From positions 1-21,573 of IMG/VR virus record IMGVR_UViG_3300025450_001051: a DNA stretch of 21,573 nucleotides; one strand, 5' to 3'. This document shows, piece by piece, positions 2,133-21,332 of the stretch (the stretch's first letter is position 1; every line of letters starts with the position of its first letter). This DNA is from a virus. Both the position numbers and the translations under genes were made by a program. The notes beneath the pieces were generated by a model. That model saw only the letters and a program-made list of their open reading frames with translations. It was not told the DNA's origin and did not search any database.

Positions 2133-2143
2133 GAAACCTCACT

Positions 2144-2183
2144 GGGCTTAGGGGAAGGACGCTTTTATTATCCCCTAAAGCCC
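2144..2183 (-). other. stem-loop just upstream of the short collagen-like gene
   Basis: GGGCTTAGGGGA (2144-2155) pairs with TCCCCTAAAGCCC (2171-2183) as a 12-bp stem with one bulged A and a 15-base loop. On the minus-strand transcript it lies after the gene ending at 2205 and only a few bases before the ribosome binding site of the next gene. No run of U follows, so it may be an RNA-processing or mRNA-stability element, or a weak terminator. Confidence 0.5.
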
Positions 2184-2204
2184 GCGCTTAAGAGGGCGAA
2201 ACTG

Positions 2205-2903: not shown

Positions 2904-2957
2904 GTAAGGCTCCTTAATTAGATGCCTTAACAGTAGCACATACCCATGCTAGGGATG

Positions 2958-3257
2958 TCAAACGGTAGGTTCTGGCACTTCTTTCCATAGGCAGGTATCT
3001 TCATTAAGCGTAAATTCTTTGCCTTCTACTATTGGCTTTGGTGGGATAAACGCATCACGGCTTTCATCATAGGTAAACCCAATACCCGCATAGTTCTTAC
3101 GAATTTTTGCGTTATACGATGTTCTTACGCACTTCTGTCCACGGAAGTTTCCATACCACTCTTCTGGGCTTAGACCATCAATGAGTTCTGTTTCGTCTTT
3201 ACCAGTAATAACTTCAGTAACAATACTATTTTCATCAAGGAACGCATAGTGTGCCAT
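2958..3257 (-). CDS. small conserved phage protein of the fibre region
   Basis: A 99-residue protein of a type common in phage structural regions. It starts MAHYAFLDENSIVTEVITG, has a central GQKCVRTSYNAKIRKNYAGIG (39-59) and then FTYDESRDAFIPPKP (61-75) and LNEDTCLWKEVPEP (84-97). I recognise this layout from many cyanophage- and pelagiphage-like genomes, where the protein is annotated as hypothetical or as a virion protein, but no function is known to me. Its ATG overlaps the TAA of the upstream adhesin gene as TAATG, so translation is probably coupled to it. No catalytic residues stand out. Confidence 0.82.
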   Translation of the reverse strand: MAHYAFLDENSIVTEVITGKDETELIDGLSPEEWYGNFRGQKCVRTSYNAKIRKNYAGIGFTYDESRDAFIPPKPIVEGKEFTLNEDTCLWKEVPEPTV

Positions 3258-7600: not shown

Positions 7601-7716
7601 GTACCTTGTACGCCTTGGGTGCCTTGAATACCTGTTGTTCCTTGAGCGCCTTGTGCGCCAACGATGGCCGCAATCCACTGACCGGATCCGGTGTCATAGT
7701 ATTTTAATTGGGACAT
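4630..7716 (-). CDS. giant collagen-like tail fibre protein with interspersed knob domains
   Basis: A 1028-residue protein, by far the largest in the window. The N-terminal anchor (1-19, MSQLKYYDTGSGQWIAAIVG) is shared with the 152-residue protein at 1674-2132. Four collagen-like tracts (about 20-265, 421-525, 607-720 and 796-828) alternate with non-collagen domains. The domain at 266-420 carries RVLVKNQ, NGIYTITSAG and TRATDYD, a pattern I know from phage fibres. The domain at 526-606 is small and beta-rich. The domain at 721-795 includes GYINVFLNGVRLSSADYT, a common fibre module. The C-terminal domain at 829-1028 begins APANQGVLWLDTS and is presumably the receptor-binding end. X positions are mainly T, I, V or L; Y is nearly always Q, sometimes T; proline is rare. 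A collagen triple helix is inferred. AGGAG precedes the ATG by four bases, and the stop overlaps the next start as TAATG. Confidence 0.92.
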   Translation of the reverse strand: MSQLKYYDTGSGQWIAAIVGAQGAQGTTGIQGTQGVQGTQGIQGTQGVQGTTGTQGTQGTQGIQGVQGTQGLQGTQGTQGVQGTQGIQGIQGPQGTQGTQGVQGTQGIQGTQGVQGTQGVQGTQGVQGTQGIQGIQGNQGTQGIQGVQGTQGIQGTIGQTGSQGTQGIQGLQGVQGTQGVQGTTGLQGTQGTQGVQGTQGVQGTTGIQGTQGTQGVQGTQGVQGTTGIQGTQGTQGVQGTQGVQGTQGIQGIQGLQGLQGLQGAAGSQNAHAAVYTTTTTALAGSPSYTAGTADASNGLGVGAYLQATTNGYLVVDGYTYSGPLPANTRVLVKNQAVSTQNGIYTITSAGSASTTWKLTRATDYDNHLADQVEPGDYVYTVAGSTNVGTSWIQYQLGSNTNGTIKIGIDNILFSQTSAVGNQGTTGAQGTQGVQGTQGLQGTQGTQGIQGVQGTQGIQGPQGTQGVQGTQGVQGLQGVQGPQGTQGTQGVQGTTGIQGTQGTQGVQGTQGTQGTQGIQGLQGIQGRSYTGVTSTTSNAIGTGSLTFAVANSGAFALGQFVTVAYTVTPANYVSGQITSITTDTSITVNVTSTGGSGTFSQWTISTAGVQGTTGSQGTQGTQGIQGIQGLQGPQGTQGTQGTQGVQGTQGVQGTQGVQGTQGNQGTTGTQGTQGTQGLQGLQGVQGTTGTQGLTGTQGTQGIQGLQGQSIQGTQGTQGIQGGVTNAPVFTTTEFTATSGQTTFSVTYNPGYINVFLNGVRLSSADYTATNGTSVVLAVGAVAGDIVVVQNITLGLGAQGTQGLQGVQGTQGVQGLQGLQGLQGQIGVQGLAVGNTAPANQGVLWLDTSVTGVVGLSSANFTAKGDTIAGTGSGTFATLPVGANNTILTADSTQTTGVKWTTNLSGLSLQSPNTYNSVIVAPSISYNINAQTGAYTTVLADAAAIITASSGSAFTVSIPTNASVAYPIGSSITIIQTGVGQITIAAVTSGTTTLNSTGATSATPKLRAQNSSATCIKVATDVWQVVGDIV
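5557..5898 (-). repeat. third collagen-like coding repeat tract of the giant fibre
   Basis: Codes for residues about 607-720 of the 1028-residue fibre as Gly-X-Y triplets, with one break (GQSIQG, near residue 706). The nine-base unit is only approximate at the DNA level, because synonymous codons vary from triplet to triplet. Confidence 0.85.
6142..6456 (-). repeat. second collagen-like coding repeat tract of the giant fibre
   Basis: Codes for residues about 421-525 as 35 consecutive Gly-X-Y triplets without interruption, mostly GTQ, GVQ, GIQ and GLQ. It joins the 266-420 and 526-606 knob domains. Confidence 0.85.
6922..7659 (-). repeat. first and longest collagen-like coding repeat tract
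   Basis: Codes for about 82 Gly-X-Y triplets (residues 20-265) directly after the N-terminal anchor. The period is nine bases, with G fixed, X variable and Y almost always Gln. Both CAA and CAG, and all four Gly codons, are used in a mixed order. The stretch is uninterrupted in frame. Confidence 0.9.
6982..7170 (-). repeat. three tandem 63-base super-repeats within the collagen tract
   Basis: Residues 183-203, 204-224 and 225-245 are three copies of a 21-residue block of pattern TTG(L/I)QGTQGTQGVQGTQGVQG, differing only at the L/I position. The DNA copies have diverged at synonymous sites, so the amino-acid order of X residues looks conserved beyond the basic triplet. Confidence 0.8.
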
Positions 7717-7790
7717 GGCTCTCCTAGGTTGGCTACAGCATTAATGGTAAGTCTTAAATCTATTTTTGTGGTGCTAAATTCCAGTGCCAT
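7704..7790 (-). CDS. 28-codon mini-ORF bridging two collagen-like genes
   Basis: The ATG at 7790-7788 overlaps the TAA of the 426-residue fibre gene as TAATG, the same junction seen at 3257, 4630 and 18085. The frame runs 28 codons (MALEFSTTKIDLRLT to EPCPN) and stops at 7704, overlapping the start of the 1028-residue fibre gene by 13 bases. Its last codons include the AGGAG ribosome site of that gene. It would fill the only sizeable gap between the two fibre genes. It may be a real small protein, or a translational bridge that carries ribosomes to the long gene. The peptide resembles nothing I know. It could also be chance. Confidence 0.35.
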   Translation of the reverse strand: MALEFSTTKIDLRLTINAVANLGEPCPN

Positions 7791-9070
7791 TAGCCCATCA
7801 CAACAACTCTGTAGTTATTAGTTGTCGGTGGGGAAGCAAAGGTCAAAGTTGCAGTATTTACTGTGGAATAGACCAAAGATGAAGGGATAACTACCGCATA
7901 AGTAGTCTGGTTATAGACGGTAACTTCAATATCTCTAGTACCAAGGTTGTGGGTAATGGTGTACGTGGTGTTGGTTCCGTCACCAATTAAGAAGGTGAGC
8001 TTCTGCGTGCCAACAATGCCGCCAACAGAAGTGTCTAACCACAAGACGCCAGTATTAGCTGGGGCTGTAGTTCCAGAGATAATTCCCTGACTTCCGGTAG
8101 TTCCTTGTGTACCTTGTAGCTGGGCATAACCAAATCCTTGGATACCTTGTACACCTTGTGAGCCAGTTGTACCTTGCGCACCTGCACCAGTTGCACCTTG
8201 GAAACCGGTAAACCCTTGAATACCGCTAAAGCCTTGAAGACCAATAAGTCCTTGTAAACCTTGAGCGCCAGTTGTACCTTGTAAACCAGTAAAGCCTTGT
8301 AGACCATTAAAACCTTGTAGACCAATAAGGCCTTGTAATCCTTGAATACCTTGGGCTCCGGTATTTCCTTGAGTACCAATGGCGCCTTGTACACCTTGAA
8401 CACCTTGTAGACCTTGAGCTCCGGTTGTACCTTGATTACCGTAATGTCCTTGAACACCCTGTGTACCCTGCGACCCTTGTACGCCTTGTGTTCCCTGTAA
8501 ACCTTGTAGGCCTTGCGCGCCAGTGTAACCCTGTGTACCAACAGACCCTTGTGTACCAGTTGTTCCTTGATTACCGTAGTAGCCTTGTACACCTTGTGTA
8601 CCTTGCGCGCCAGTTGTTCCTTGCGTTCCAGTTGAACCCTGTATACCAGTTGTTCCTTGTGTACCAGTGTAACCCTGGATACCTTGAACACCTTGACCAG
8701 CAAATTGACCAGCTAGACCTTGAATACCTTGTGTGCCCTGATGACCGTCCGCGCCAATATAACCAGCAGAACCTTGAATACCAAGATGTCCTTGTGTACC
8801 TGTAAAACCTTGAACACCTGTTTGTCCAACGTGTCCTTGTATTCCGTAAGCACCTTGAATACCTTGTGTGCCTTGTATACCGGTTGCGCCTTGTGCGCCA
8901 GTTCCCTGTGAGCCTCCGCCACCAGAACCAGCTGGTCCTTGAATACCCTGAATACCTTGAACACCTTGACCTGGGTTTTGTGGGACGACTGTAATAGCTA
9001 CAGGAGGTTGTGGCACCACTATAATTGGGCAAGTGCACGGCCAGTTGCCGCAGGTATTACAGGTGTTCAC
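7790..9070 (-). CDS. collagen-like fibre protein with N-terminal cysteine cluster
   Basis: A 426-residue fibre protein. Its N-terminus differs from the other two collagen-like proteins: MNTCNTCGNWPCTCP places four cysteines as CxxCxxxxCxC (residues 4, 7, 12 and 14), followed by a Pro/Val-rich stretch to residue 34. Gly-X-Y triplets occupy about 36-329, with more aromatic and varied residues (GFTG, GYTG, GHYG) than the giant fibre and a short GSGGGGS break near 48-54. The C-terminal part (330-426) starts TTAPANTGVLWLDTS, a module shared with the giant fibre, and ends in a beta-rich domain with TYTITHNLGTRDIEVTVYN and NNYRVVVMG. I recognise this ending from phage fibre tips. The GTG start lies one base past the TAG of the upstream neck gene. 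The cysteines could bind metal or form disulphides in the trimer. Confidence 0.88.
   Translation of the reverse strand: MNTCNTCGNWPCTCPIIVVPQPPVAITVVPQNPGQGVQGIQGIQGPAGSGGGGSQGTGAQGATGIQGTQGIQGAYGIQGHVGQTGVQGFTGTQGHLGIQGSAGYIGADGHQGTQGIQGLAGQFAGQGVQGIQGYTGTQGTTGIQGSTGTQGTTGAQGTQGVQGYYGNQGTTGTQGSVGTQGYTGAQGLQGLQGTQGVQGSQGTQGVQGHYGNQGTTGAQGLQGVQGVQGAIGTQGNTGAQGIQGLQGLIGLQGFNGLQGFTGLQGTTGAQGLQGLIGLQGFSGIQGFTGFQGATGAGAQGTTGSQGVQGIQGFGYAQLQGTQGTTGSQGIISGTTAPANTGVLWLDTSVGGIVGTQKLTFLIGDGTNTTYTITHNLGTRDIEVTVYNQTTYAVVIPSSLVYSTVNTATLTFASPPTTNNYRVVVMG
8084..8965 (-). repeat. collagen-like coding repeat tract of the 426-residue fibre
   Basis: Codes for residues about 36-329 as near-continuous Gly-X-Y triplets. 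Compared with the giant fibre, Y positions are more varied (Q, T, G-adjacent V and L) and X positions include F, Y and H. It ends with the linker GFGYAQLQG, which is shared with the protein at 1674-2132. Confidence 0.85.
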
Positions 9071-10268: not shown

Positions 10269-10634
10269 TTAGATAACGCCGGCCAGATAACCTTTTTCCT
10301 TAAGGTGCTGTGCTACTTGCTTTGTAACCTTGTACTTAACTCCAGCCTTAAAGCTGTAGTTATTACCCTTACCTAGAGTCATGTTCTCGAGGTCTTGAAC
10401 AACACGAATCTCAACAGATGAATCGTCTGTGCTTCCAAGAGTCACAGGGTCATCAACAATAACGGTTTGACGGGAAGGCTGTGTAGCATCAATAACTTCG
10501 GTCTCTAGTTTAACCTGGGCTTGAGCTGTTGCCATAGACATTTCAGCTGCACGGTCGTTCATATCAGCGGCTGCTTGTTCTGCAAGCTGCTCACGTACAC
10601 GGCCGGTTACATCAGTGGGCTTTGATTTAGCCAT
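10269..10634 (-). CDS. small putative virion protein next to the major capsid gene
   Basis: A 121-residue protein. Residues 1-50 are Ala/Gln/Glu-rich and probably helical. A middle part has TVIVDDPVTLGSTDDSSVEIRVVQDLEN (57-84). The C-terminal part (92-121) has YSFKAGVKYKVTKQVAQHLKEKGYLAG. The ending G-x-KYKVxxxVAxHLxEKGYL is a pattern I know from small proteins next to capsid genes in actinobacteriophages, where the role is undetermined (decoration, head fibre or connector accessory). It lies between two terminators, so it is probably transcribed partly by read-through from the capsid gene. AGGAG lies seven bases before the ATG. Confidence 0.75.
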   Translation of the reverse strand: MAKSKPTDVTGRVREQLAEQAAADMNDRAAEMSMATAQAQVKLETEVIDATQPSRQTVIVDDPVTLGSTDDSSVEIRVVQDLENMTLGKGNNYSFKAGVKYKVTKQVAQHLKEKGYLAGVI

Positions 10635-10664
10635 TGCATTCTCCTAATTAGTATCTCGATGAAA

Positions 10665-10690
10665 ATGACGGGGGGCCGTTAAGCCCCCCG
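10665..10690 (-). terminator. strong stem-loop after the major capsid gene
   Basis: CGGGGGGC (10669-10676) and GCCCCCCG (10683-10690) form a perfect 8-bp GC stem with a six-base loop (CGTTAA). On the minus strand TCATTTTCATC follows, a weak U tract. Placement 42 bases after the stop of the major capsid gene fits partial termination that leaves capsid mRNA most abundant. Confidence 0.72.
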
Positions 10691-10731
10691 CTTTAAGCTA
10701 TTTAGTTGTAATTAGTCTTATCACAGACCGG

Positions 10732-11805
10732 TTAGTTTGTTTCGATAATTACTACGCTCTGATCAGTAATCAATCCCAAACCGAAGATTGAGTACCAAGC
10801 AAGTGCATGCTCACGACCGAAGTCAAGAATACCGCCATCGCGGAGTTCGACTGGGAGTGAGATAGCGTGACCGAATGCGTTATCACCGATCATGATAGCT
10901 GCATAACGATCTGATCCACCGTTACCTGTGAGGGTAGCAGGGGTTGTGTAGCCTCCGCCAGGTGTGACAACTGGGTTAGCAACAGCTGTATCAGTTGTGT
11001 ATGAAGAACCTGCGCCACCAACAACCTTGAGGACCTGGGTGGTTTCGATGAATACTACGTCGTAGAGACGACCGATTTCACCGAGCATGAAGTTACCTGG
11101 AGCTGCGTACTTTGTGACCTCGATGAATTCAGGGTTGTCACGAAGGGTACGGCTCTGGTGTGGGTGAACGAAGCAGACATAAGTCTCGCCCAACCGTGGG
11201 ATGTTCTTTGTTGCCAAGGTCTCAACTGTGTCCTTGATAACGTGTGGTGTGAGGTAAGCAGCACCTGTCATTGCTGCGCGATTTGCAGCAAAAGTTCCGT
11301 AACCGTACCAGTTGTTAACAGCTGATGAGACTGCTGAGCGATCTTCGCCGTAAAGGACTGAAGATGCTGCATAGAGTGTGTCGCGTGAGAGCTGATCTAG
11401 GTAGATAGCCATGTTACGACCGAGAAGACGTGAGGCTGAGGCCATTACGTCATCAAATGAAGCATTGAGCAAAAGCTCAGATACTGCAAGAGCATAACCA
11501 TGCTCTGTTACAGTGATTGAGAACTGCTGTGCTGTGAGAGCGTTAGTCTGCATACGGACACCTTCAACAAGAGGTGAAGCGAATCCGAGGTTGTTGTAAC
11601 GCATGAAATTGATCTGTAGACCAGGTGCAACACCGAGTTCAGTCTTCTTGACTGCAAACTGCTCAAAGCGAAGGATAGGCATAGCCTGGAACAAGATTTC
11701 CTTGGACCAGATAGTCTGAATCGCCTGAGTTAACTGGGTGTTGGTACCTGAGTACGCTGTAGGTGCTGCGGCTAGATTGCCTGTACCTGTGATACCTGAT
11801 GCCAT
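10732..11805 (-). CDS. major capsid protein, HK97 fold, N4-gp56 family
   Basis: A 357-residue shell-forming protein. The pattern matches the N4-gp56 branch of HK97-fold capsid proteins: a short N-terminal arm, ILFQAMPILRFEQFAVKKTE (37-56), ITVTEHGYALAVSELLLN (96-113) leading into the spine helix, SASRLLGRNMAIYLDQLSRD near 122-141, then the characteristic CFVHPHQSRTLRDNPEF near 209-225 and GEIGRLYDVVFIETT near 240-254. It follows the scaffold gene by 42 bases, as expected. A TACTAT hexamer at 11823-11828 with CTAACA 17 bases further upstream could be a weak promoter inside that gap, but the match is poor. AAGGAG lies ten bases before the ATG. The stem-loop after it at 10669-10690 is consistent with high expression. 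Confidence 0.93.
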   Translation of the reverse strand: MASGITGTGNLAAAPTAYSGTNTQLTQAIQTIWSKEILFQAMPILRFEQFAVKKTELGVAPGLQINFMRYNNLGFASPLVEGVRMQTNALTAQQFSITVTEHGYALAVSELLLNASFDDVMASASRLLGRNMAIYLDQLSRDTLYAASSVLYGEDRSAVSSAVNNWYGYGTFAANRAAMTGAAYLTPHVIKDTVETLATKNIPRLGETYVCFVHPHQSRTLRDNPEFIEVTKYAAPGNFMLGEIGRLYDVVFIETTQVLKVVGGAGSSYTTDTAVANPVVTPGGGYTTPATLTGNGGSDRYAAIMIGDNAFGHAISLPVELRDGGILDFGREHALAWYSIFGLGLITDQSVVIIETN

Positions 11806-11847
11806 TTGGCTTTAACTCCTTGATAGTAGTTTTTAATAGATTAAGTG

Positions 11848-12630
11848 TTAGCCCAATATTCCGCTGGTCTTACCAAGAGCACGGTTGCTCAAGATCTGAG
11901 TGCGGACTTTTGCGTATTCATTCATCGGCATTGACGCAATATCTGCGGCAGTGAACTGACGTGGTTCCGAATTAGTTTCCAAGGGTCCAACGCCTGGCAA
12001 GGTTGCCCTCACTCCCGGCATATCTCTGCGTTGCTGCTGGATAGCAGACTGTGCAGATTCTAGAATACTGTTAGATCGCTCAACCAAACCTGTAATGCTC
12101 TCGTTGATCTCATCTGGGGTATTACCCTGAACGTAATCAATGAGCTGTGGGATGATATTTTCGCGGTTTTGTTCAACAGCTTGTTGACGGTAAGCCTGCA
12201 GTTCTGCAAACTTTCTTTCCTGCTCCAGAAGAGCGAAGGCCGCTTCGCGTTCTTGACGCTCACGTGCCAACTGCTCTCGCAGTTCATCGGCTGTAGCTTT
12301 TGCAAAGTCCTTGGCGTCCAAGTCATTTTCAAGCTTTGCCTTCTCTTCAGCTGCTTTGGCTTCCGCCTCTGCTGCTTTGCGAGCTGCTTTTTCTTCGCGC
12401 TCTTTCTTAAGGAGTGAAACTTCTTCCTTCAATCGATCGATCTCTGGGTAAAGCTTCTCTTTCTCCTGTGAACGAACCTTTGCAAGATCCTCTTCGGTAT
12501 AAAACTTCTGAGTTGGTTCATTCTTTCCAGAGGTAACAGTAGGCGCGTCAACGCCCGACACATTTACTACTGGAGCTGTATTAGCTTCTGCTTCAAAAGC
12601 ATTAGCCATTAGATCTGCAGTTTCTGACAT
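11848..12630 (-). CDS. capsid scaffolding protein
   Basis: A 260-residue, highly charged, mostly helical protein directly before the major capsid gene. Residues about 43-160 form a long Glu/Lys/Ala/Arg-rich coiled-coil region (for example LKEEVSLLKKEREEKAARKA and AKAAEEKAKLE). The N-terminal 40 residues are low-complexity, and the C-terminal part (about 220-260) is a short predicted helix, FTAADIASMPMNEYAKVRTQ, of the kind that contacts capsid subunits. These features and the gene order (portal, scaffold, capsid) identify it as the internal scaffold that guides procapsid assembly. No protease motif is visible, so removal of the scaffold may use another enzyme or exit. AAAGGA lies seven bases before the ATG. 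Confidence 0.87.
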   Translation of the reverse strand: MSETADLMANAFEAEANTAPVVNVSGVDAPTVTSGKNEPTQKFYTEEDLAKVRSQEKEKLYPEIDRLKEEVSLLKKEREEKAARKAAEAEAKAAEEKAKLENDLDAKDFAKATADELREQLARERQEREAAFALLEQERKFAELQAYRQQAVEQNRENIIPQLIDYVQGNTPDEINESITGLVERSNSILESAQSAIQQQRRDMPGVRATLPGVGPLETNSEPRQFTAADIASMPMNEYAKVRTQILSNRALGKTSGILG

Positions 12631-12710
12631 GCGTTTATCCTTTTATCCTAGGGGTCGTTTTACGATGTGGGGGCACAAATGACCTAACGTGGTATTACAG
12701 TATTTATTTT

Positions 12711-12732
12711 GACAATAGATGTCTTAATTGTC
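12711..12732. other. GACAAT/ATTGTC dyad between portal and scaffold genes
   Basis: GACAAT (12711-12716) and ATTGTC (12727-12732) are inverted with a ten-base spacer. The 115-base gap around it is the longest spacer between structural genes. On the minus strand it contains GACATCTATTGTCAAAAT, loosely like the promoter blocks at 14478-14500 and 17032-17054. It could be an operator, a weak promoter or chance. Confidence 0.35.
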
Positions 12733-12745
12733 TGTATAAATCACT

Positions 12746-14458
12746 TTATTTTTGGTAACCGTCTGGGACTCTGCGCTGTGGCAATTGAGTACCGTAGGCT
12801 TCCGTTACTAGCCGAGTGCGTACCTTCTCATCACCCATTTGGGCGGCGATAGTTGCATCATCTAGTAATACTGGCTCTGTTGGGGCCGCAGGTGCTTCTG
12901 CGCTTGGAGCGCCTGGTGCAGAGGAACCACCAGGGCCTGTTTGTGCTGGCATTGACCCTGTAAGGGCCATGATGTCCTGCTCGATCTGAGTCTGAATAAG
13001 CTTAAGTGCTCCATCAGCCATTGCTTCATCTTGAAGCTCTTGACGGATCTCTGAAAGCTTCTCAATAGGGAACTCTTCGCCTAGGATGCGCAATGCGCCT
13101 TCCTTAGACTCAAGGCCAAGTGAGAGCATTGACTGGACTTCGTTGATAGCAATGAGCTTGTCAAGAGGAAGTGGCTGTGGGAAGTGAACATAAGAGCGGA
13201 AAGTAATAGGATCATTTACGTCTAGCTTGGAGACCTGACCCTGCTTTAGTGGGATAGTGCTTGCGTTAGGATCCCAAGTAAAGGTCTCTGGCTCTTTAAG
13301 GGCAAGGTTAAGAAGGATAAGCTCATTTACGCGCTCAAGACCGTGTGCATACTGGACGATCTTCTGGTGATAACGGTTCATCAAAGGCTGGAATTGAATA
13401 GATAGAGCAACACCAGAGGTGTTAGAGATAGGTTGTGCCTGACCAAGAGCGGTCTCAGGAACACCAATCATTTCGTGCATAGACTTCTTCATCATTGCTA
13501 GGAAGTCCATAGCGCCCTTTAGACCCTGTGCGCCACCTTCTAAGTTTTCTACTCGTGCGTCCTTTGGAAGGCCGCCCCATACTTTGTTAGCGCCTTTCTC
13601 AAGCTGAGAAGCTTTGGCGCCAATAATGACCGTAACCGGCGCAGCGTGATAATTAACAATGTCTGCAATATCAGTAGCAGTTTCATTGTAAGCACGATTA
13701 ATATTGATAATGTCATTGCAATCAGAAAGGCCCCAAGGACTACCACTAATACGAACATTCGGGATATGAATAACTGGAATTGTGCCAAGCGGGTTAGGGC
13801 GCGAGTCAATGAGTTCGTCATTGATATATTCCTCGATGATGTCATCTGTGAGGATTTCTGTGTACGTGAATACTTGGCGCGTACCTTCCAAGCTAGTACC
13901 CCAAAAACGGTACTTAAGCTTAAAACGGACAAGGCGTTCGCGGTCGTGTGGATGGAACTCGGGGAAAGCGAAACTAGAGTTAAGAGGCAAAATTCGTACA
14001 CGACCAGGGTGCTTACGGCCAGCAGGATCCACATAAGGCTCTTCATAAGCCACTTTAATAAAGCAGTCACCTGACACCGTACCTTGCTGACCAATTTCCC
14101 AAAGGACTGTGGCCTTGTTGTTATCCACTTCCCAGACGCGCTCTAGTAGGTCTGGAACGATTGCTTCGGTCTCTTTAGGGCTGCGGAAGTTAACACCCTT
14201 ACCAAAGGTAAAGTTAATGATGAAGTCGCTGAATGCGCGATAGTAGTTAAGAACCATCTGTGTCTCACCTGTCTGACGGCGATAAGACCAGTGGTGACCA
14301 AGATACATAGCCCAGTTAAGTGAGTAGCGATTTAGGCGTGGGCCGTGTACTTCAAACTCTTCATCCGCTAGTTCTACTAACCCAAGCGGAGAGATGGAGA
14401 TGGTTAAATCAGAGGAGGCTGCACGATAACTCGGTGGAGAGAAATCCATACCGCTCAC
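12746..14458 (-). CDS. portal protein
   Basis: A 570-residue portal protein, the ring through which DNA enters and leaves the head. The pattern fits SPP1-gp6-like portals: an N-terminal lead (about 40-100) with YSLNWAMYLGHHW and MVLNYYRAFSDFIINFTFG, a beta core with VSGDCFIKVAYEEPY and NPLGTIPVIHIPN, and the long helical stem/crown region with DIININRAYNETATDIADIV, FLAMMKKSMHEMIGVPETALG and GVALSIQFQPLMNRYHQKIV. The C-terminal tail (about 490-570) is Ala/Pro/Gly-rich. The GTG at 14458 is preferred over the ATG nine bases later because GAGG lies six bases before the GTG. A well-formed extended -10 promoter is centred about 30 bases upstream. Portal, scaffold and capsid genes follow in that order. 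Confidence 0.93.
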   Translation of the reverse strand: MSGMDFSPPSYRAASSDLTISISPLGLVELADEEFEVHGPRLNRYSLNWAMYLGHHWSYRRQTGETQMVLNYYRAFSDFIINFTFGKGVNFRSPKETEAIVPDLLERVWEVDNNKATVLWEIGQQGTVSGDCFIKVAYEEPYVDPAGRKHPGRVRILPLNSSFAFPEFHPHDRERLVRFKLKYRFWGTSLEGTRQVFTYTEILTDDIIEEYINDELIDSRPNPLGTIPVIHIPNVRISGSPWGLSDCNDIININRAYNETATDIADIVNYHAAPVTVIIGAKASQLEKGANKVWGGLPKDARVENLEGGAQGLKGAMDFLAMMKKSMHEMIGVPETALGQAQPISNTSGVALSIQFQPLMNRYHQKIVQYAHGLERVNELILLNLALKEPETFTWDPNASTIPLKQGQVSKLDVNDPITFRSYVHFPQPLPLDKLIAINEVQSMLSLGLESKEGALRILGEEFPIEKLSEIRQELQDEAMADGALKLIQTQIEQDIMALTGSMPAQTGPGGSSAPGAPSAEAPAAPTEPVLLDDATIAAQMGDEKVRTRLVTEAYGTQLPQRRVPDGYQK

Positions 14459-14483
14459 TGCTCACCTCTTTCAACTTTAGACA

Positions 14484-14513
14484 ATACTAACATAAATGTC
14501 GACTTATGCACAA
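14484..14513 (-). promoter_or_regulatory. extended -10 promoter before the portal gene
   Basis: On the minus strand TTGTGC (14513-14508), an 18-base spacer ending TGT, and TAGTAT (14489-14484) form a -35/extended -10 pair. Transcription would start near 14477, giving a leader of about 20 bases that includes the portal ribosome site. Bases 14478-14500 match 17032-17054 at 21 of 23 positions, which argues for a real, shared element. Confidence 0.6.
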
Positions 14514-14521
14514 AACGACAC

Positions 14522-14830
14522 TCAGCGGAAACGTTCGCCTCTAATGAGGTTCTGGCCTACCGGCTTAGTTACTACCTTCTTTTGTTCTTTTTCTTTTTTA
14601 TCCTGCGCTTCTTTAGCGTAATCGCGGAAGCGTGGATCTACATCTTTCTCAGATGTTACAAACTTGCCACCCAATTGAACATAGCGGGAGTGAACCCAGT
14701 GAGCAGCTGCAGGAGAAGGGTATGTGCGGAACTTAGAGCGCGCTTGAGTAGTAAGCATGTTCCAAAGCTTTTGATTTGCAGGGATCTGCTTAGGACCCTT
14801 TTTTACTTCTTTACCTGTAATTAATGCCAT
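14522..14830 (-). CDS. small basic phage protein of unknown function
   Basis: A 102-residue, strongly basic protein: MALITGKEVKKGPKQIPANQ at the start, LWNMLTTQARSKFRTYPSPAAAHWVHSRY in the middle (22-50) and a Lys/Glu/Gln-rich end. The central segment is well formed and likely folded; the last 30 residues look disordered. From memory, similar proteins lie between terminase and portal genes of actinobacteriophage-like genomes and are uncharacterised. AAGGA lies six bases before the ATG. Roles in packaging or DNA binding are possible because of charge and position, but nothing in the sequence proves either. Confidence 0.75.
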   Translation of the reverse strand: MALITGKEVKKGPKQIPANQKLWNMLTTQARSKFRTYPSPAAAHWVHSRYVQLGGKFVTSEKDVDPRFRDYAKEAQDKKEKEQKKVVTKPVGQNLIRGERFR

Positions 14831-14854
14831 TAATCATCCTTAGATAGTAACCAG

Positions 14855-14878
14855 CCCTGCCCCGTTAGTGAGGCAGGG
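14855..14878 (-). other. stem-loop between two small genes after the terminase
   Basis: CCCTGCC (14855-14861) and GGCAGGG (14872-14878) form a perfect 7-bp GC stem with a ten-base loop. No U tract follows on the minus strand (CTGGTTACTATC), so this is more likely an mRNA-stability or processing element than a full terminator. Confidence 0.5.
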
Positions 14879-14894
14879 ATGACTTACTTATTTC

Positions 14895-15293
14895 TTAGTC
14901 GTGGACGACTGCAGGATTGCCAGCCTTCTGTGGACCACCGCTGCGGAATGCTTCCTCAATGCGGTTGTCACCGTGGTCTGCAAAACCACCAGCAGCAAAT
15001 TCCTTAAGATGATCTGGAGCTTCTACCCATGCAGCAGAACCAACGTGAGCGCGCTCACGCATTGTCTCTTCTGGAAGCTTCTCAAATACATTCTGATTAC
15101 GGTTTGGACGACCTGCTGCAGGAACGTATCCCTGCATAGCGCCCTTTGTGAATTCCTGTGGGACGTCTGTATCTGTTGCAATGCCTTCTTCAAAACGAAG
15201 TGGGCCGCGCTGACCAGGGGTTGCTGGTGAGACTTTGCGGTCGTAGACAGTGCCAGGACGTTCTGGGAACTTTGGATCTGGTGCAATTGCCAT
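14895..15293 (-). CDS. small hypothetical protein downstream of the terminase
   Basis: A 132-residue protein rich in Gly, Pro, Ala, Glu and Arg and poor in hydrophobic residues, so it is probably extended or disordered. It starts MAIAPDPKFPERPGTVYDRK and has GAMQGYVPAAGRPNRNQNVF (51-70) and AAGGFADHGDNRIEEAFRSG (99-118). I do not recognise a domain. It follows the terminase by 74 bases and precedes the basic 102-residue protein, in a block that looks translated as a unit. AGGAG lies six bases before the ATG. It could be an internal virion protein or a packaging accessory, but neither is shown. Confidence 0.7.
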   Translation of the reverse strand: MAIAPDPKFPERPGTVYDRKVSPATPGQRGPLRFEEGIATDTDVPQEFTKGAMQGYVPAAGRPNRNQNVFEKLPEETMRERAHVGSAAWVEAPDHLKEFAAGGFADHGDNRIEEAFRSGGPQKAGNPAVVHD

Positions 15294-15367
15294 TATTTAC
15301 TCCTATATTAGGTTGAGGACCTCAGTAAAAGTGTGCTACAGAAAGTAGCTACAGTCAGCCTAAAGTC

Positions 15368-16945
15368 TTATCTAAAAAACGGACTGGATGAAACTTCAAT
15401 CTGTGGCATCGTCATTTCGATGGTTAAAGAACAGGCGATAGCCAAAGAGTCTGCGTAGTCATCGTGGGCATGGGCCTCGTCTGGTGCTTTAGCTAGGAAG
15501 TTTGGGCCAGTAAACTTGGTCTCTAAATCCTCAAGCTGCTGCCTAAATCTACGGTAACTACGTAGCTTTCTAGTCTTAGCGTGAGCTGGCCAACTAATAA
15601 GATCTCTGTCCATAAGGGCCTTTAAGTGCTTCCAGCGCTTAGACTGTTCGGGCTGACTGCTACCTACAGAGAATACCTCTGCTCTAGGAAGCAAAAGCTT
15701 CAGCCTCTGAGCCACCGCATCACCGACGCCGTTAGCATCTACCCCAACATACATAACGTTGTAGTTCTCTAAAAACTTTACAATCTGGAAGTACTGATCT
15801 TCCCAGTCGTCCCCTTGCAGCTCCAACCAATTGAGCACTCTATGATCAAAGTAGCCAAACTCATCTGGGCGATCCCAATCAACCCAGACAACGGTTACTA
15901 CAGTAGAGTCAATCTTACGGGCAGGGTCAATGCCTACAACTACTGGGGTTCTATGCCAAGCGCGTTGAATCTCCATAGAGGTATCGCCAAGCCTGTCCAT
16001 GGTTGTAGATGTAACAAACATGCCACGCTCAAGAAGCCACTTACAGTTATACGACATCTGGAACTCATCTGAGTCTTCACCAATACGTAGCTTTTCACGC
16101 TTAATGTGCTTTTCGTAGTTGGAGTTAACTTTAATAACATCTCGCCAAGTCCACTCAAAGTGGTTCTGACGTTTGGTGCGCGCAGTCTGTCGGCGCTTAT
16201 TAAGCATGATGCTGTTGTAAAAGTTATTTTTATGCGTAGTTGGGGTGCCTGTTTTAACCATGGTTCCCGCGTAGTAAGCCAACATAGGCGCAATAGATTT
16301 GGATACTACAAAGTCATCTGCCTCTTGGCACTCATCAATAACAATAAGATGGAACGACTTAGATTCAATCTTTGCTCGTGGGTTAGCGGTCATCATCATT
16401 AGGGATGATCCAGAGTTCTTTAGCTTAATCTGGCGAGTAACTCCTGCTACACGGCCTACGCTGTCATCGATCTCTGGGTCACCCAGGATCTCTAACGCTC
16501 TATCTGATGTTAGGCGGTTTACAGTACGTCCAAACAAAGTTTCTACCTGGCCCTCAACAGGCGCAAACATACCCACCATGATGCCGTCTTTAAAGCGCCC
16601 AAGTAGATCTGGGTACATCTTGGCCAAGCGTGGTAGCAGAACCATAAGGGTAGCTACAGTGTTAGCAATAGTCTCTGATTTACCTGACTGACGAGCTGCC
16701 AAGGCTGTAATTTCTTCACTGTCATTTATAATTACCGACTCAATAATACGGCGAGCAAGAGGCATCTGATATGGATGAAGTTCGTGTCCAACTAAGGCTG
16801 TTTGGAATTCAACGCAGCGATCGATGAGCTTGTTGACAAAAGATTTAGATAGCTCATCAAGCTCTATCTCTTCTTCTTCTACAAACTCTTCGTCTTCTAT
16901 CTCATCAGGATAGAACTCGTCTTCGTCTTCTATTAGTTGGTCCAT
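15368..16945 (-). CDS. terminase large subunit
   Basis: A 525-residue packaging motor ATPase and nuclease. The Walker A loop is ARQSGKSE (84-91), Walker B with the catalytic Glu is LIVIDE (200-205), and a TGTP coupling motif lies at 232-235. The RNase H-like nuclease domain shows VVGIDPA with D340, VGVDANG with D403 and HDDYADS with D495/D496 and D499. All of these motifs look intact. The first 32 residues are an unusual acidic extension with about 20 Asp/Glu. No small terminase was recognised; one of the short genes just upstream (17074-18659) may fill that role. AAAGG precedes the ATG by four bases. A promoter, an 18-bp palindrome and a terminator hairpin all lie in the 128 bases before the gene, so its expression is probably controlled separately from the genes upstream. 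Confidence 0.95.
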   Translation of the reverse strand: MDQLIEDEDEFYPDEIEDEEFVEEEEIELDELSKSFVNKLIDRCVEFQTALVGHELHPYQMPLARRIIESVIINDSEEITALAARQSGKSETIANTVATLMVLLPRLAKMYPDLLGRFKDGIMVGMFAPVEGQVETLFGRTVNRLTSDRALEILGDPEIDDSVGRVAGVTRQIKLKNSGSSLMMMTANPRAKIESKSFHLIVIDECQEADDFVVSKSIAPMLAYYAGTMVKTGTPTTHKNNFYNSIMLNKRRQTARTKRQNHFEWTWRDVIKVNSNYEKHIKREKLRIGEDSDEFQMSYNCKWLLERGMFVTSTTMDRLGDTSMEIQRAWHRTPVVVGIDPARKIDSTVVTVVWVDWDRPDEFGYFDHRVLNWLELQGDDWEDQYFQIVKFLENYNVMYVGVDANGVGDAVAQRLKLLLPRAEVFSVGSSQPEQSKRWKHLKALMDRDLISWPAHAKTRKLRSYRRFRQQLEDLETKFTGPNFLAKAPDEAHAHDDYADSLAIACSLTIEMTMPQIEVSSSPFFR

Positions 16946-16960
16946 ATAACCTTTAGTTTA

Positions 16961-17001
16961 TTTTAAAACAAAGAGCCTAAGTCGTTAAACCTAGGCTCTT
17001 T
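16961..17001 (-). terminator. intrinsic terminator or attenuator before the terminase
   Basis: AAAGAGCCTA (16970-16979) pairs perfectly with TAGGCTCTTT (16992-17001) around a 12-base loop. On the minus strand it is followed by GTTTTAAAATAAAC, a good U-rich tail. It lies 15-56 bases before the terminase ATG and downstream of the candidate promoter at 17038-17067, so transcripts from that promoter must pass it. Confidence 0.78.
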
Positions 17002-17037
17002 GCGCCATCTACGGGGAGAGGAAGAGAGGCGTAGACA

Positions 17038-17067
17038 ATAATAGCATAAATGTCTATTTGTCGACAA
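17038..17067 (-). promoter_or_regulatory. extended -10 promoter before the terminase
   Basis: On the minus strand TTGTCG (17067-17062), an 18-base spacer ending TGC, and TATTAT (17043-17038) form a good -35/extended -10 pair. Transcription would start near 17031. The 23 bases 17032-17054 match the portal promoter region at all but two positions. Confidence 0.62.
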
Positions 17068-17071
17068 ATAG
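17054..17071. promoter_or_regulatory. 18-bp perfect palindrome over the -35 region (operator-like)
   Basis: CTATTTGTCGACAAATAG reads the same on both strands. It covers the whole -35 hexamer of the promoter at 17038-17067 and ends just before the stop of the upstream gene. A perfect palindrome of this length overlapping a promoter is typical of a homodimeric repressor site. The binding protein is unknown. Confidence 0.6.
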
Positions 17072-17073
17072 GT

Positions 17074-17319
17074 TTAACGGCGCGGCGTACGCTTTCTAAG
17101 TTGGTCTACCATGGCATGAAGAGCCTCAGCCCCGTTTAGAGCCTCGTCTAAATAGATGTCCTCTCTACTGCGCTGGTACATAGAAAGGCAACGGCCGATC
17201 TCATAGATAGATTGATCTAACCAGCCCTCAATTTCAGGGGTTTGTAGCCTAGATACTCTCTTAGACACCTTCTCAGAGAATGGCTTGTCCCAGACCTTAT
17301 TCCGAGAAAAAAGTTTCAT
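17074..17319 (-). CDS. small hypothetical protein upstream of the terminase
   Basis: An 81-residue helical protein from the ATG at 17319 (MKLFSRNKVWDKPFSEKVSK). Longer versions start at 17331 or 17349, but the site AGGATGG lies well placed only for 17319. Later parts read LDQSIYEIGRCLSMYQRS and YLDEALNGAEALHAMVDQL and end in a basic RKRTPRR. From memory, it resembles small proteins found just upstream of terminase genes in actinobacteriophage-like genomes. It is a possible small terminase by position and helicity, but no DNA-binding motif is clear. It overlaps the end of the upstream gene by 23 bases, so translation is probably coupled. Confidence 0.72.
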   Translation of the reverse strand: MKLFSRNKVWDKPFSEKVSKRVSRLQTPEIEGWLDQSIYEIGRCLSMYQRSREDIYLDEALNGAEALHAMVDQLRKRTPRR

Positions 17320-17596
17320 TAAATAGTCCATCCTGAGGCTTCCAAGCATCGCGGCCTCTCATAGTCCTGAATAGAAGTGCATCAATAGAGTCTTCGTCAT
17401 CTAAATCAATGTTAGGCTTCTTAAACCAAACACCCAAGTAAAAGCCTGGATGAGTAAATGGTACGCGAAAGACCAAGCACTTTCCAAGCCGATAAGGGCG
17501 ATCTGTCTCTTGGGTGGTTCCCACTTCAATAACCGGTAGTAGGTGTCTGTGCCAGTAATCTAGCTTTCCGCCGTATAGTAGTCCGTATGATTTCAT
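17297..17596 (-). CDS. hypothetical protein, 99 residues
   Basis: A 99-residue protein with many aromatic residues: MKSYGLLYGGKLDYWHRHLL at the start, KCLVFRVPFTHPGFYLGVWF at 39-58 and a C-terminal acidic helix. It looks like a compact beta-rich fold. I do not recognise a family. Its ATG follows the stop of the KTSC-like gene with no gap (TAAATG), and it overlaps the next gene by 23 bases, so it is one member of a tightly packed small-gene operon. Confidence 0.7.
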   Translation of the reverse strand: MKSYGLLYGGKLDYWHRHLLPVIEVGTTQETDRPYRLGKCLVFRVPFTHPGFYLGVWFKKPNIDLDDEDSIDALLFRTMRGRDAWKPQDGLFNETFFSE

Positions 17597-18085
17597 TTAG
17601 TTCTCCTTGAAAAAGTCAAAAGCTCCCCAGTTACGTAGGTCTCCCCGTTGAATTGACGAGGCTCTTGCAGATGAGTCACTTAGTCTAGCCACAGTACCAG
17701 CAGATAGGTTTCTTAACTGAGCAGGCTCGTGTGATGAGCAAGCGGACTCTAGAGTAGGCAAGTAGTCATTAGTAGACTCTGCGTTCTTTAGCCCAAGCCA
17801 GACCTCAGTAGAGACGTCGTTATATTGGTGCCAGTGGTTAGTTCTAAACACAATATAAACAGTCTTTGTATTTGGGTTGTACGCAATAGTTAGCGCCCGT
17901 GGTCTAGATGGTTTTCTAGTTGGGGCGGTTGTTGTCTCAAACCCAACGTTGGTAACATCATTTGGGATAGCAATATCTATATCCGCCTCTTCAGGCTTTG
18001 ATAAATACTCTTTTACAGATTCATTAGACCGCTGGGTCTTAAAGAAGTCATCTGGATTTAACGGCGCTGCTTTTCTACTAGCCAT
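17597..18085 (-). CDS. KTSC-like domain protein
   Basis: A 162-residue protein. The N-terminal 60 residues are charged and probably disordered. Residues 63-110 (RALTIAYNPNTKTVYIVFRT then YNDVSTEVWLGLKNAESTND) match the layout of the KTSC domain: a beta-hairpin, an aromatic-rich strand, and a helix ending in a small residue-Ser turn. In some phages and bacteria this domain sits beside nucleic-acid-related proteins; its exact role is unknown to me. The C-terminal part (110-162) is Ser/Ala-rich and then ends GAFDFFKEN. The ATG overlaps the previous stop as TAATG. Confidence 0.65.
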   Translation of the reverse strand: MASRKAAPLNPDDFFKTQRSNESVKEYLSKPEEADIDIAIPNDVTNVGFETTTAPTRKPSRPRALTIAYNPNTKTVYIVFRTNHWHQYNDVSTEVWLGLKNAESTNDYLPTLESACSSHEPAQLRNLSAGTVARLSDSSARASSIQRGDLRNWGAFDFFKEN

Positions 18086-18426
18086 TAGTCCTCACATACA
18101 TGGTCAGCGGTCTCTGTTTCTAATACACGTACCATACACTCACTGCACCTTAAATACCTAGGCGGCTTAAAATTATTTTGAGTAGTGGCTCCTAGAGGAA
18201 ACTCAGACCCATCTTCATTAAATGCTGGGGTAGCAATAACTATCTTAGGCTCTTTAAGAAGCTCTGGAGAAAATGGACCGTAAGCGTGGGTAACTTTATT
18301 GGGGACTGGGTGCGCTTGTGGGGCGTCAATCCTTGTTATTAAATGTGGAGCTACCAAGTCTAATTCGTCGTCAACTTCTCGGCTTCTAGGTGTGTAGGCG
18401 CCAAAAACCTCGTAGTCAATTCCCAC
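18085..18426 (-). CDS. zinc-knuckle-like small protein
   Basis: A 113-residue protein from a GTG at 18426. Residues 1-85 have no recognised domain; the C-terminal end has CSEC (94-97) followed by HVC (109-111), a possible CxxC-HxC metal site. Pro-rich stretches suggest an extended N-terminal part. It lies two bases past the stop of another cysteine-motif protein and ends in TAATG with the KTSC-like gene. It could bind DNA, RNA or a partner protein through the metal knuckle. No specific function can be given. Confidence 0.68.
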   Translation of the reverse strand: MGIDYEVFGAYTPRSREVDDELDLVAPHLITRIDAPQAHPVPNKVTHAYGPFSPELLKEPKIVIATPAFNEDGSEFPLGATTQNNFKPPRYLRCSECMVRVLETETADHVCED

Positions 18427-18428
18427 GA

Positions 18429-18659
18429 CTACTCCTGAACGTCAGAGCTCTTTGGTGCAGCTTTCTTCTTAGGCTTTTCTTCTACAGGAGTTTCTACAAT
18501 AGATTCTTCAATAGTTTCCATAAGAGGAAAGTGACCTGCATTAGCACGGTCATACAACCAAGCTGGGAGGCAAGATGTGCAGTAGTGAGCGGGATTTACC
18601 CCAGGGTCAGCCGTTGTGTATGAAGCTGGGTTACTGCAGTTGTCGCACTTAATCGCCAT
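18429..18659 (-). CDS. small zinc-ribbon protein
   Basis: A 76-residue protein. Two CxxC pairs (C5/C8 and C27/C30) suggest a small zinc ribbon in the first 35 residues, and the C-terminal 25 residues are Glu then Lys-rich (EEKPKKKAAPKSSDVQE). AGGAGG lies five bases before the ATG, the best ribosome site in the area. It is the first gene after the terminator-promoter junction at 18683-18717, so it starts a transcription unit of five small genes that leads to the terminase. Similar small zinc-ribbon proteins are common in actinobacteriophages but uncharacterised. Confidence 0.78.
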   Translation of the reverse strand: MAIKCDNCSNPASYTTADPGVNPAHYCTSCLPAWLYDRANAGHFPLMETIEESIVETPVEEKPKKKAAPKSSDVQE

Positions 18660-19255: not shown

Positions 19256-19565
19256 GAATGTGCTCCAAAATCTCGTTTACATGCCGGCGGAGTTCCTCAA
19301 TATGGTTATGGGTCTCCTGATCTAGTTTTAGATCTTTAGTAATAATACGCCTGTCTTCATCTCCAGAACGGTTAGTTGCATTCAAAAGTAGACCAGATAG
19401 CAAGATGGACTCTAGAGAAACAATAAGCGTCAAAAGGTTATATGGATACGGATCAAAGTAGGCGATTGTCATCCAGGTAGACCAAAAAATTAGATGAAAG
19501 ATGATAAACCAAGGAGATCCAAAGGCTACAGAGGCCCAGTCAGATATCTTTTGAAAGAACTTCAT
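19239..19565 (-). CDS. DUF1003-like membrane protein
   Basis: A 108-residue protein resembling the DUF1003 family. Two membrane segments lie at about 18-36 and 43-62, joined by the family hallmark FDPYPYNLLTLIVSLES (37-53). Then come NATNRSGDEDRR (62-73) and a coiled-coil end at about 75-104. DUF1003 proteins are integral membrane proteins of unknown biochemical role in many bacteria; some actinobacteriophages carry one near the lysis genes, from memory. In this position it may help holin function or membrane disruption. Its ATG overlaps the endolysin stop as ATGA, so the two are co-translated. Confidence 0.75.
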   Translation of the reverse strand: MKFFQKISDWASVAFGSPWFIIFHLIFWSTWMTIAYFDPYPYNLLTLIVSLESILLSGLLLNATNRSGDEDRRIITKDLKLDQETHNHIEELRRHVNEILEHIRGNKA

Positions 19566-20428
19566 TGATTGGCCTTTGCTACCATAGATGTGTAAGTTGA
19601 TAGATCAATACCTTTGCCTTTAGAAGCTTTAAGACCTGGATATAGCCCTTGATATACAGGTATAAGCGCGATCTCTTCTTCGGTCAATACGTTAGAAACT
19701 AAGCTAGCGGGCATAAGTCCCGCATTTGCTAGCGCTTTTGCTACTACCAGCTCGACATTACCCTCAGCTCCAACCTTAAAAACAGATGAACCTGGGAAGG
19801 GTGGCGCAACAATTACAGTGGGCTTAGTTGTTTGTTTTGGCGCGGTGCTTGTACTGTGGATAACTGCGGCACCCCCACCTGTTAAGGCTGTTGCGCCTGC
19901 AACACCCACTGCCAATGGCTTATTAGTTCCAATAGATTTAGCTGGGGCAGAGCTTCCCGCATAGGCTGGGCGAACAATAGCTAGAACATAAAGGTAGGGA
20001 CGATGACGACGATAGCAGCCATCTCCGTTTGATTGGTTACCTGTGTAGGACTCAGGGCCGGTGTTAAACCCAATAGTAGTTAATCCGTCTTTAGATGCGG
20101 CTTCCACAATCTCTACGTGGTCAGCAACTCCGTTGCCGCTCCAAGAGAAGAAGACAATATCTCCAGGTAGAGCAGAGTACTTGTCAATAACTTGTTTATT
20201 CTTTTGAAACCAAGTGAGTCCAGCAGGACAATAAGAAAATCCTTTAGGTGTTTGAGCAGCTACAAGATGAGAAGCATTTGCTTGGGCAAAGCACCAGCTG
20301 ATACCCATGGCACAGTAAGACTCGTTTGGAATCCCGTACCATGTTCCGTAGGGGTTTTCATTGTTAGGCCCTTCTACAAAGCCCAACTGGGTGCGGGCAA
20401 TGTTGACAATATCAACGCCTGCTGTCAT
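19562..20428 (-). CDS. endolysin with CHAP amidase/endopeptidase domain
   Basis: A 288-residue peptidoglycan hydrolase. The CHAP domain (about 1-150) has the nucleophile in ESYCAMGISWCF (C39), the histidine in ADHVEIVE (H104) and a plausible third residue in GFNTG (N122). Residues about 157-190 form a Gly/Ala-rich, mildly hydrophobic linker, followed by a Thr/Pro-rich spacer. The C-terminal region (about 207-288, FPGSSVFKVGAEGNVELVVAKAL...) loosely resembles peptidoglycan-binding modules of actinobacteriophage endolysins. No signal peptide is seen, so export would depend on a holin. AAAGGA lies six bases before the ATG, which overlaps the HNH stop. Confidence 0.88.
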   Translation of the reverse strand: MTAGVDIVNIARTQLGFVEGPNNENPYGTWYGIPNESYCAMGISWCFAQANASHLVAAQTPKGFSYCPAGLTWFQKNKQVIDKYSALPGDIVFFSWSGNGVADHVEIVEAASKDGLTTIGFNTGPESYTGNQSNGDGCYRRHRPYLYVLAIVRPAYAGSSAPAKSIGTNKPLAVGVAGATALTGGGAAVIHSTSTAPKQTTKPTVIVAPPFPGSSVFKVGAEGNVELVVAKALANAGLMPASLVSNVLTEEEIALIPVYQGLYPGLKASKGKGIDLSTYTSMVAKANQ

Positions 20429-20862
20429 TTGCTTTCCTTTACTACTTCTGCTGCCGCATCTGTATTAGCTCTGCGGTATCTAAAGGTCTCCCAAAGAGGA
20501 GCTGGTATCTCATGAATACCGTATCGGGTTCTATGATGCGCCATGCACAGTACTTCTAGATTACCTGGGCTTTCAATCCACTCTTGAAACTCTTCATCTG
20601 TGGCAAAGTGAGCACCAAAAGCGGCTTCTACTTTATGTGGGTCCATGTTGTTTACCTGTGAGAACTCAATGTGGCTATGATGAAGCTCAGGTTCACCTGA
20701 ACATAGGTCATCGTTTATAGCGCACTTCCATAGACCGGCCTTCTTAATTCTAGATTTAGCCTGATTAAACAGGTGGTAGTGAGGGTCACTCTCACGCGGT
20801 TCATGCTCTGGAATAGAAACAGCCAGATGAAGGTTCATCATCTGCTTGTGAGCGCCTGTCAC
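20425..20862 (-). CDS. HNH-like endonuclease
   Basis: A 145-residue protein with a plausible HNH/zinc-finger core: C47 and C54 in WKCAINDDLCSG, then ELHHSHIEF (59-67) as the first His strand, NLEVLCMAHH (101-110) supplying N101, C106, H109 and H110. This matches the beta-beta-alpha-metal pattern with zinc ligands C47, C54, C106 and H109. The spacing between the His and Asn strands is longer than in classic HNH proteins. In many tailed phages an HNH protein is needed with the terminase for DNA packaging; here it lies in the lysis block instead, so it could also be a host-DNA nuclease. It begins at a GTG overlapping the previous stop. Confidence 0.7.
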   Translation of the reverse strand: MTGAHKQMMNLHLAVSIPEHEPRESDPHYHLFNQAKSRIKKAGLWKCAINDDLCSGEPELHHSHIEFSQVNNMDPHKVEAAFGAHFATDEEFQEWIESPGNLEVLCMAHHRTRYGIHEIPAPLWETFRYRRANTDAAAEVVKESK

Positions 20863-21332
20863 TGGTAGATCAACCTCTCTGCTAGATCGCCTGGAACAAT
20901 CAGATAGTCGGGCTTATTCAGTAGAGCGACCCCTGCTTTGTCATAGGCCTCAGCAACAAGCTCTGAGCAGATAAAGCCATCTTTTTTGGCCAGATAAGTA
21001 AACATAGGTAGGTTTAGCTTAAGGCCCAAGATTCTTAACGCAAGAAGGGCGATAGTAAAGAAGTCATAAGGACGGCCAACAAAAGACAGAGCATTCTTTG
21101 CAATGTGCTCGCGTTGCTCATCAGTCAGCTGCTCGTGTCTGTTCCAAGCAATGTCTTTATAGTCGGCAATGTTTACAAGCTTTACGCCTATAGGATCAGC
21201 ACTAACGGCTCTGCCGTCACCTACGTAGACTATGGCGTGGTTCCAACGGCTGGTGGTGCCAATGCGGATTAACAACCCAAAGAACCCGTTAGTCTTTACT
21301 ACGCCGTAATCGCCTATACGAGGTTCGTACAT
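20859..21332 (-). CDS. YiiX-like permuted NlpC/P60 hydrolase
   Basis: A 157-residue protein whose catalytic residues are in permuted order, as in the YiiX/YebB branch of papain-like NlpC/P60 enzymes. The histidine comes first (RWNHAIVYVGDG, H32), and the cysteine later (GFICSELVAEAYDKAGV, C122 with E124). The start MYEPRIGDYGVV has the usual GD pocket strand, and the late IVPGDLAERL fits the end strand. A hydrophobic helix at about 91-107 is mid-protein, not a signal peptide. Members cleave amide bonds in peptidoglycan or lipids. With the CHAP enzyme close by, this may be a second lysis hydrolase or a virion lysin, but the substrate is unknown. AAGGAG precedes the ATG by five bases. Confidence 0.8.
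   Translation of the reverse strand: MYEPRIGDYGVVKTNGFFGLLIRIGTTSRWNHAIVYVGDGRAVSADPIGVKLVNIADYKDIAWNRHEQLTDEQREHIAKNALSFVGRPYDFFTIALLALRILGLKLNLPMFTYLAKKDGFICSELVAEAYDKAGVALLNKPDYLIVPGDLAERLIYQ

Follow-up and report, generated by a model that had tools for sequence, protein, structure and literature searches.

Paired extended −10 promoters of terL and portal, and a conserved terL leader RNA, in phages probably infecting freshwater Actinobacteria

Introduction

In the T4 middle promoters the −35 is replaced by the MotA box in combination with a strong extended −10, and the sigma-A of Actinobacteria accepts the extended −10 TGnTAnnnT. Late control in lambdoid phages relies on Q, whose loading close to the promoter uses a DNA element and a promoter-proximal pause (PMC7171158). 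Among the actinobacteria that dominate lakes, and which are the apparent hosts here, viral gene control is nearly uncharted; freshwater actinophages have been recognised by their whiB genes (PMC6802176).

The DNA analysed here, an IMG/VR fragment of 21.6 kb that is referred to as the window, carries the packaging genes terL (terminase large subunit) and portal. An earlier note on this DNA had drawn attention to two nearly identical blocks in front of these genes and read them as co-regulated late promoters or as binding sites. The features of the region are listed in Table 1.

Results

The two blocks and their surroundings in the window

Positions 14478-14500 read TAGACAATACTAACATAAATGTC and positions 17032-17054 read TAGACAATAATAGCATAAATGTC on the + strand, and they are identical in 21 of 23 bases. 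Both are intergenic and both are oriented on the − strand, the coding strand of portal and terL, the genes next downstream, where the consensus fitting the two is GACATTTATGNTANTATTGTCTA. The window sequence and its open reading frames thereby bear out the description in the earlier note, two differences in 23 intergenic bases. With up to three mismatches allowed, the 23-base motif matched the window at these two places only, and 100 dinucleotide shuffles gave no match.

Also on the − strand of the window, very long collagen-like proteins of 152, 1028 and 426 aa with GTQGVQGTQG repeats are encoded in the tail region (1674-9070), and KTSC-domain, CHAP-domain endolysin-like and C92-type amidase-like proteins are encoded upstream of the packaging genes (17597-18085 and 19562-21332).

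Table 1. Features of the packaging region, in window coordinates.
Feature	Position	Strand	Details and evidence
portal gene	12746-14458	−	PHROG phrog_64, E 2e-36
terL gene	15368-16945	−	PHROG phrog_2, E 5e-34
terL promoter block GACATTTATGCTATTATTGTCTA	17032..17054	−	TG 17046-17045, TATTAT 17043-17038; exact or nearly exact in close relatives, aligned with other terL-upstream sites
Palindrome TATTTGTCGACAAATA with GTCGAC box	17055..17070	.	Box at 17060-17065; its distance from the −10 is 16 bp in the window clade and usually 8 bp
Portal promoter block GACATTTATGTTAGTATTGTCTA	14478..14500	−	TG 14492-14491, TAGTAT 14489-14484; aligned across relatives
Dyad TGTCG-N14-CGACA	14497..14520	.	Includes GTCGAC 14498-14503, just upstream of the portal −10; sequence and portal-upstream alignment
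terL leader RNA (predicted)	16965..17033	−	Covariance-model match 84.9 bits; covariation; fold z = −5.4
Leader 5′ hairpin	17031-17028 with 17006-17003	−	CGCC pairs with GGCG, pyrimidine loop TCTCTTCCTCTCCCCGT; covariance model
Intrinsic terminator hairpin	16969..17002	−	16-bp stem, then TTTGTTTT; between promoter and terL
Promoter-like site of the scaffold-like gene (11848-12630)	12706..12734	−	CAGACA 12734-12729, 17 bp, CAAAAT 12711-12706; separate from the pair

An extended −10 and an upstream box are common to both genes

Since the window is only a fragment, further copies of the motif were sought in relatives. A first TerL search gave 80 loci and three later searches about 100 more, and the comparison set comprises about 150 IMG/VR loci on contigs that are mostly fragments, many of them closely related. 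These relatives are probably phages of freshwater Actinobacteria, the host being assigned from whiB and habitat; WhiB-like genes are frequent among them, which fits an actinobacterial host.

In the closest relatives the 23-mer was found exact or nearly so at both terL and portal. Across the family the core of the aligned upstream regions of both genes is the extended −10, TGnTAnnnT, kept in most relatives, and no conserved −35 hexamer was found in these alignments. The two blocks had been described as sharing a layout of −35, 18-bp spacer and extended −10; such a layout is found at 17032 (TTGTCG-18-TATTAT, 9 of 12 positions) and not at 14478, and its spacing is not kept in relatives. A canonical −35 at 17032 was therefore rejected for lack of conservation. 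The ends GACA...TGTC, suggested as those of a binding site, are limited to the clade of the window and to L009 and L010, and were rejected as the core operator on account of this clade-specificity.

Most lineages carry the box TTTGTCGAC, ending about 8 bp before the −10 hexamer, and at this distance the conserved upstream GTCGAC is too close to act as a −35. In the clade of the window the terL box is placed at 16 bp within a 16-bp palindrome, and the portal box is at the usual distance as one arm of a dyad (Table 1) whose spacing is identical in distant relatives (L014, L018, L020, L060, L027 type). Variants of the box are common to both sites of one genome, namely GTCTAC in L077, TAGACA in L009 and ATCGAC in L023. 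The box was present at both sites in 15 cases, at neither in 11, at terL only in 10 and at portal only in none, a concordant pattern; its presence changes only about four times on the TerL tree, too few independent events for a significant test of whether the sites co-evolve. Some lineages do without the box, as L036, L047 and L068 keep the extended −10 and the leader described below but lack it, so that not every form of the unit requires it.

The two occurrences of GTCGAC in the window are those at the terL and portal promoters. The hexamer is below expectation in the window and in the genomes G001-G006 (in G004, 2 found against about 11 expected), possibly reflecting restriction avoidance.

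The blocks might be chance resemblances or a recent duplication without shared control, leaving two ordinary constitutive promoters. The 23-bp identity itself is indeed clade-limited, but the core is common to both genes in relatives with TerL only about 80% identical, and is found nowhere else. This explanation is highly improbable and is largely refuted by the comparative data.

The element is almost confined to terL and portal

In a PWM scan of four large relatives (56-100 kb) all strong sites belonged to terL or portal. One of the relatives, G003, has ends overlapping by 123 bp and is thus a closed genome of about 97.9 kb, so that the count covers a complete genome; terL and portal carry its only two sites. 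The exact box pattern matched 33 times throughout IMG/VR, and in 32 of these instances the gene directly downstream is terL (22) or portal (10). The 23-mer occurs 28 times across IMG/VR, 26 times before terL or portal, and at the remaining two an HNH gene sits between promoter and portal. In two relatives, L198 (9514-10143) and L195, the insertion of an HNH endonuclease gene falls precisely in the gap from the portal promoter to the start of portal, with the promoter intact.

A genome-wide consensus of late promoters was rejected, because the large relatives carry only the terL and portal sites; two sites per genome define a module of packaging genes. The search of whole genomes proposed in the earlier note has hence yielded further copies in relatives, only at terL and portal and two per genome. 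Its idea of co-regulated late promoters is supported for the portal and terL pair, since relatives repeat the element at these two genes and IMG/VR has it almost nowhere else, and does not extend to a general late set. Such a distribution points to a shared factor that would act in trans at both promoters.

A separate site precedes the scaffold-like gene

The region 12711-12732 had been regarded as a looser version of the same blocks. It turned out to belong to a different element, a separate −35/−10 promoter-like site (Table 1), which in relatives reads CTGACA/CAGACA-17-nAAAAT and has neither an extended −10 nor a GTCGAC box. A second strongly conserved 5′ UTR lies ahead of the scaffold-like gene at 12631-12690 (− strand), with CGTTnGGTCATnyGTGCT...TCGGAAAACGACCCCTAGGAT. 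It holds a variable central hairpin with apparent covariation (CGCC/GGC, CGGGC/GCCC, GAGAT/ATCTC) and GGTC/GACC arms, and it had no Rfam match.

A conserved hairpin-terminator leader between promoter and terL

Between the 17032 promoter and terL lies a conserved leader of about 70 nt that the earlier note had missed. It follows straight upon the terL promoter and consists of a 5′ hairpin followed by an intrinsic terminator and then terL. The unit is shared by all aligned relatives, with YGCC, a pyrimidine loop containing UCUCUUCCUCUCCCCGU, GGCR and the intrinsic terminator ahead of terL, and the order of promoter, terminator and gene is kept across the aligned terL-upstream regions. With a covariance model built from 15 sequences, the leader was recovered ahead of terL at 58 loci of the first set; of 66 further loci outside the model-building set, 63 had it. 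Exact 20-mers of the leader lie upstream of terL in 58 of 60 instances, the other two being at contig ends, and there is one leader per genome. Of the weaker matches of the model elsewhere, those inspected were mostly plain terminators; one, in L035, lies within coding sequence, and none had the pyrimidine leader. A sub-threshold likeness to the threonine operon leader was seen on both strands at L102:13202-13341, where it is probably due to a strong hairpin alone.

In 49 distinct leader sequences 97.3% of the cells are paired, and changes on both sides occur in 7 of 10 pairs. Cells with both-side changes number 26 as against 4.1 in shuffles, in an alignment fitted to the structure and with shuffles that ignore relatedness; sliding the partners abolishes the signal. 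The exchanges GCC/GGC to ACC/GGU and UGCC/GGCA to CGCC/GGCG are visible in the raw sequences. The leader of the window folds 5.4 standard deviations better than shuffles. No match to Rfam 15, and so none to 6C or any other family, was obtained up to E = 5 for window 10500-18500, and no description of the promoter-leader element was found in the literature searched.

With its single copy, its strict position upstream of terL and its strong conservation, the stretch could also be thought of as a DNA element by the terminase gene at which packaging is initiated (pac/cos). This is very unlikely, as both hairpins show compensatory base-pair changes and the terminator has a T-run, features that fit an RNA. 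Moreover, terL is at least 22 kb from the nearer listed record end in cultured Streptomyces relatives, although these are record ends and not mapped DNA ends, in relatives without the leader.

The main rival to a gate on terL is a small RNA. The chief product of the terL promoter would then be a trans-acting sRNA that pairs with mRNAs and is made up of the 5′ hairpin, with its CU-rich loop as the seed, and the terminator; terL would merely lie downstream. The leader is a compact RNA of two hairpins that begins about at the expected promoter start and ends at the terminator, its loop is more conserved than the flanks of the stem, and actinobacterial sRNAs with C-rich loops such as 6C exist (PMC4046766). 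Against this, pairing of the loop with phage ribosome-binding regions in four genomes was no better than for shuffled loops, a comparison that covers phage targets, and antisense action of the loop on phage ribosome-binding sites was dropped as a candidate because shuffled loops matched its best pairing. The leader is also always tied to terL, for which a trans-acting RNA would have no need. The sRNA role is accordingly rather doubtful.

Candidates for a factor acting in trans

The two Q antiterminator families covered by the search, PF03589 and PF06530, were found in 0 of 9 relatives including the closed 97.9-kb genome. No sigma70 domain was found in the nine relatives.

The box may alternatively be bound by a WhiB-like protein of the phage, acting by itself or together with host WhiA, that activates the −35-less promoters. 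WhiB proteins bind region 4 of sigma-A (PMC6282962), and 5 of the 9 relatives have WhiB genes, often on the opposite strand and about 3 kb ahead of terL, as in G003 (8-172), G002 (87267-87449), G005 (14942-15130) and G006 (53025-53207). In a first, smaller sample the box appeared to go together with a WhiB gene near terL, but the association was not significant in a larger one: in 51 dereplicated loci, WhiB was within 4.5 kb in 19 of 35 loci with the box versus 4 of 16 without (p = 0.07). The WhiB adjoining terL, at first a promising partner of the box, was thus not retained. The motif of WhiA is GACAC (PMC3781837), whereas the box TTTGTCGACW has GACA/T followed by A or T and is never fixed as GACAC. 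A role of WhiB or WhiA at the box is on these grounds unlikely. The larger genomes also have a second, different WhiB paralogue elsewhere.

Discussion

The outcome is an exact two-promoter packaging module together with a covarying leader RNA that is absent from Rfam and is a marker of terL in this phage family. The interpretation favoured here, and considered probable from the arrangement of the sequence elements, is that terL and portal have late promoters of the host sigma-A type which are co-controlled through the box, and that terL is in addition gated by the terminator of its leader. At both promoters the extended −10 would be recognised by a host polymerase with a sigma-A-type factor in the absence of a −35, and a factor common to the two would bind the box and set the timing at which the pair fires. 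Transcription from the portal promoter would read directly into portal with no terminator between. The terL promoter would start the leader of about 70 nt, and since the terminator sits after the promoter and before terL, most transcripts should end there at about 70 nt. With terL expressed by read-through alone, the leader would be a gate on terL. If the terminator served only to close the upstream operon, it should lie ahead of the promoter, and here it comes after it. The simplest reading is a gate on terL, and this gate would open late as in lambdoid phages.

A further step may be proposed tentatively. The terL leader could represent a new family of phage RNAs controlling terminase, in which the 5′ hairpin with its invariant pyrimidine loop acts on RNA polymerase, or on a factor of phage or host that the box recruits, and suppresses the adjacent terminator, as a device unrelated to Q, N and put. 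If true, an actinophage antitermination device would couple the expression of terminase to that of portal. This extension is somewhat unlikely.

Among cultured phages the closest TerL, at 52-53% identity, are those of the Borockvirus-like Streptomyces phages BRock, GiJojo and pSt2308, which have the same gene order of terL, small genes and portal. They differ in having neither the leader nor the box upstream of terL, and before portal just an extended −10-like TTGTGGTAAC is kept in GiJojo and pSt2308. With the 6C small RNA of Actinobacteria the leader has in common a C-rich loop and a terminator; it differs in its lack of an Rfam match, in a pyrimidine (CU) loop found in one hairpin only, and in being phage-encoded and tied to terL.

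Both sites and those of the relatives resemble extended −10 promoters of housekeeping sigma factors in having TGnTAnnnT and no conserved −35, with the difference that an extra box stands at a fixed distance in the would-be spacer. An activator-type box in the place of the −35 next to a strong extended −10 is also the design of the T4 middle promoters, whose box has another sequence and a spacing other than the 8 bp from the −10 seen here.

The layout is like that of the lambdoid pR′-tR′-Q system, in which the promoter likewise leads immediately into a short leader that ends in a terminator, and terminase lies beyond it together with further late genes. The window and almost every relative have a promoter-proximal intrinsic terminator ahead of terminase, and the box for the putative factor is close to the −10 (about 8 bp). 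The differences are that no Q-family protein was found in the nine relatives, that the leader has only about 70 nt and a conserved structured loop, that a second promoter with the same box, that of portal, has no terminator, and that the hosts are presumably Actinobacteria. Since the two Q families sought were not found, the likeness is one of layout alone and membership of the lambdoid system is not claimed. If the gate is real, it would point to a trans-factor and would provide an actinobacterial case of terminase control close to the promoter, for which lambdoid phages are the best-known example to date.
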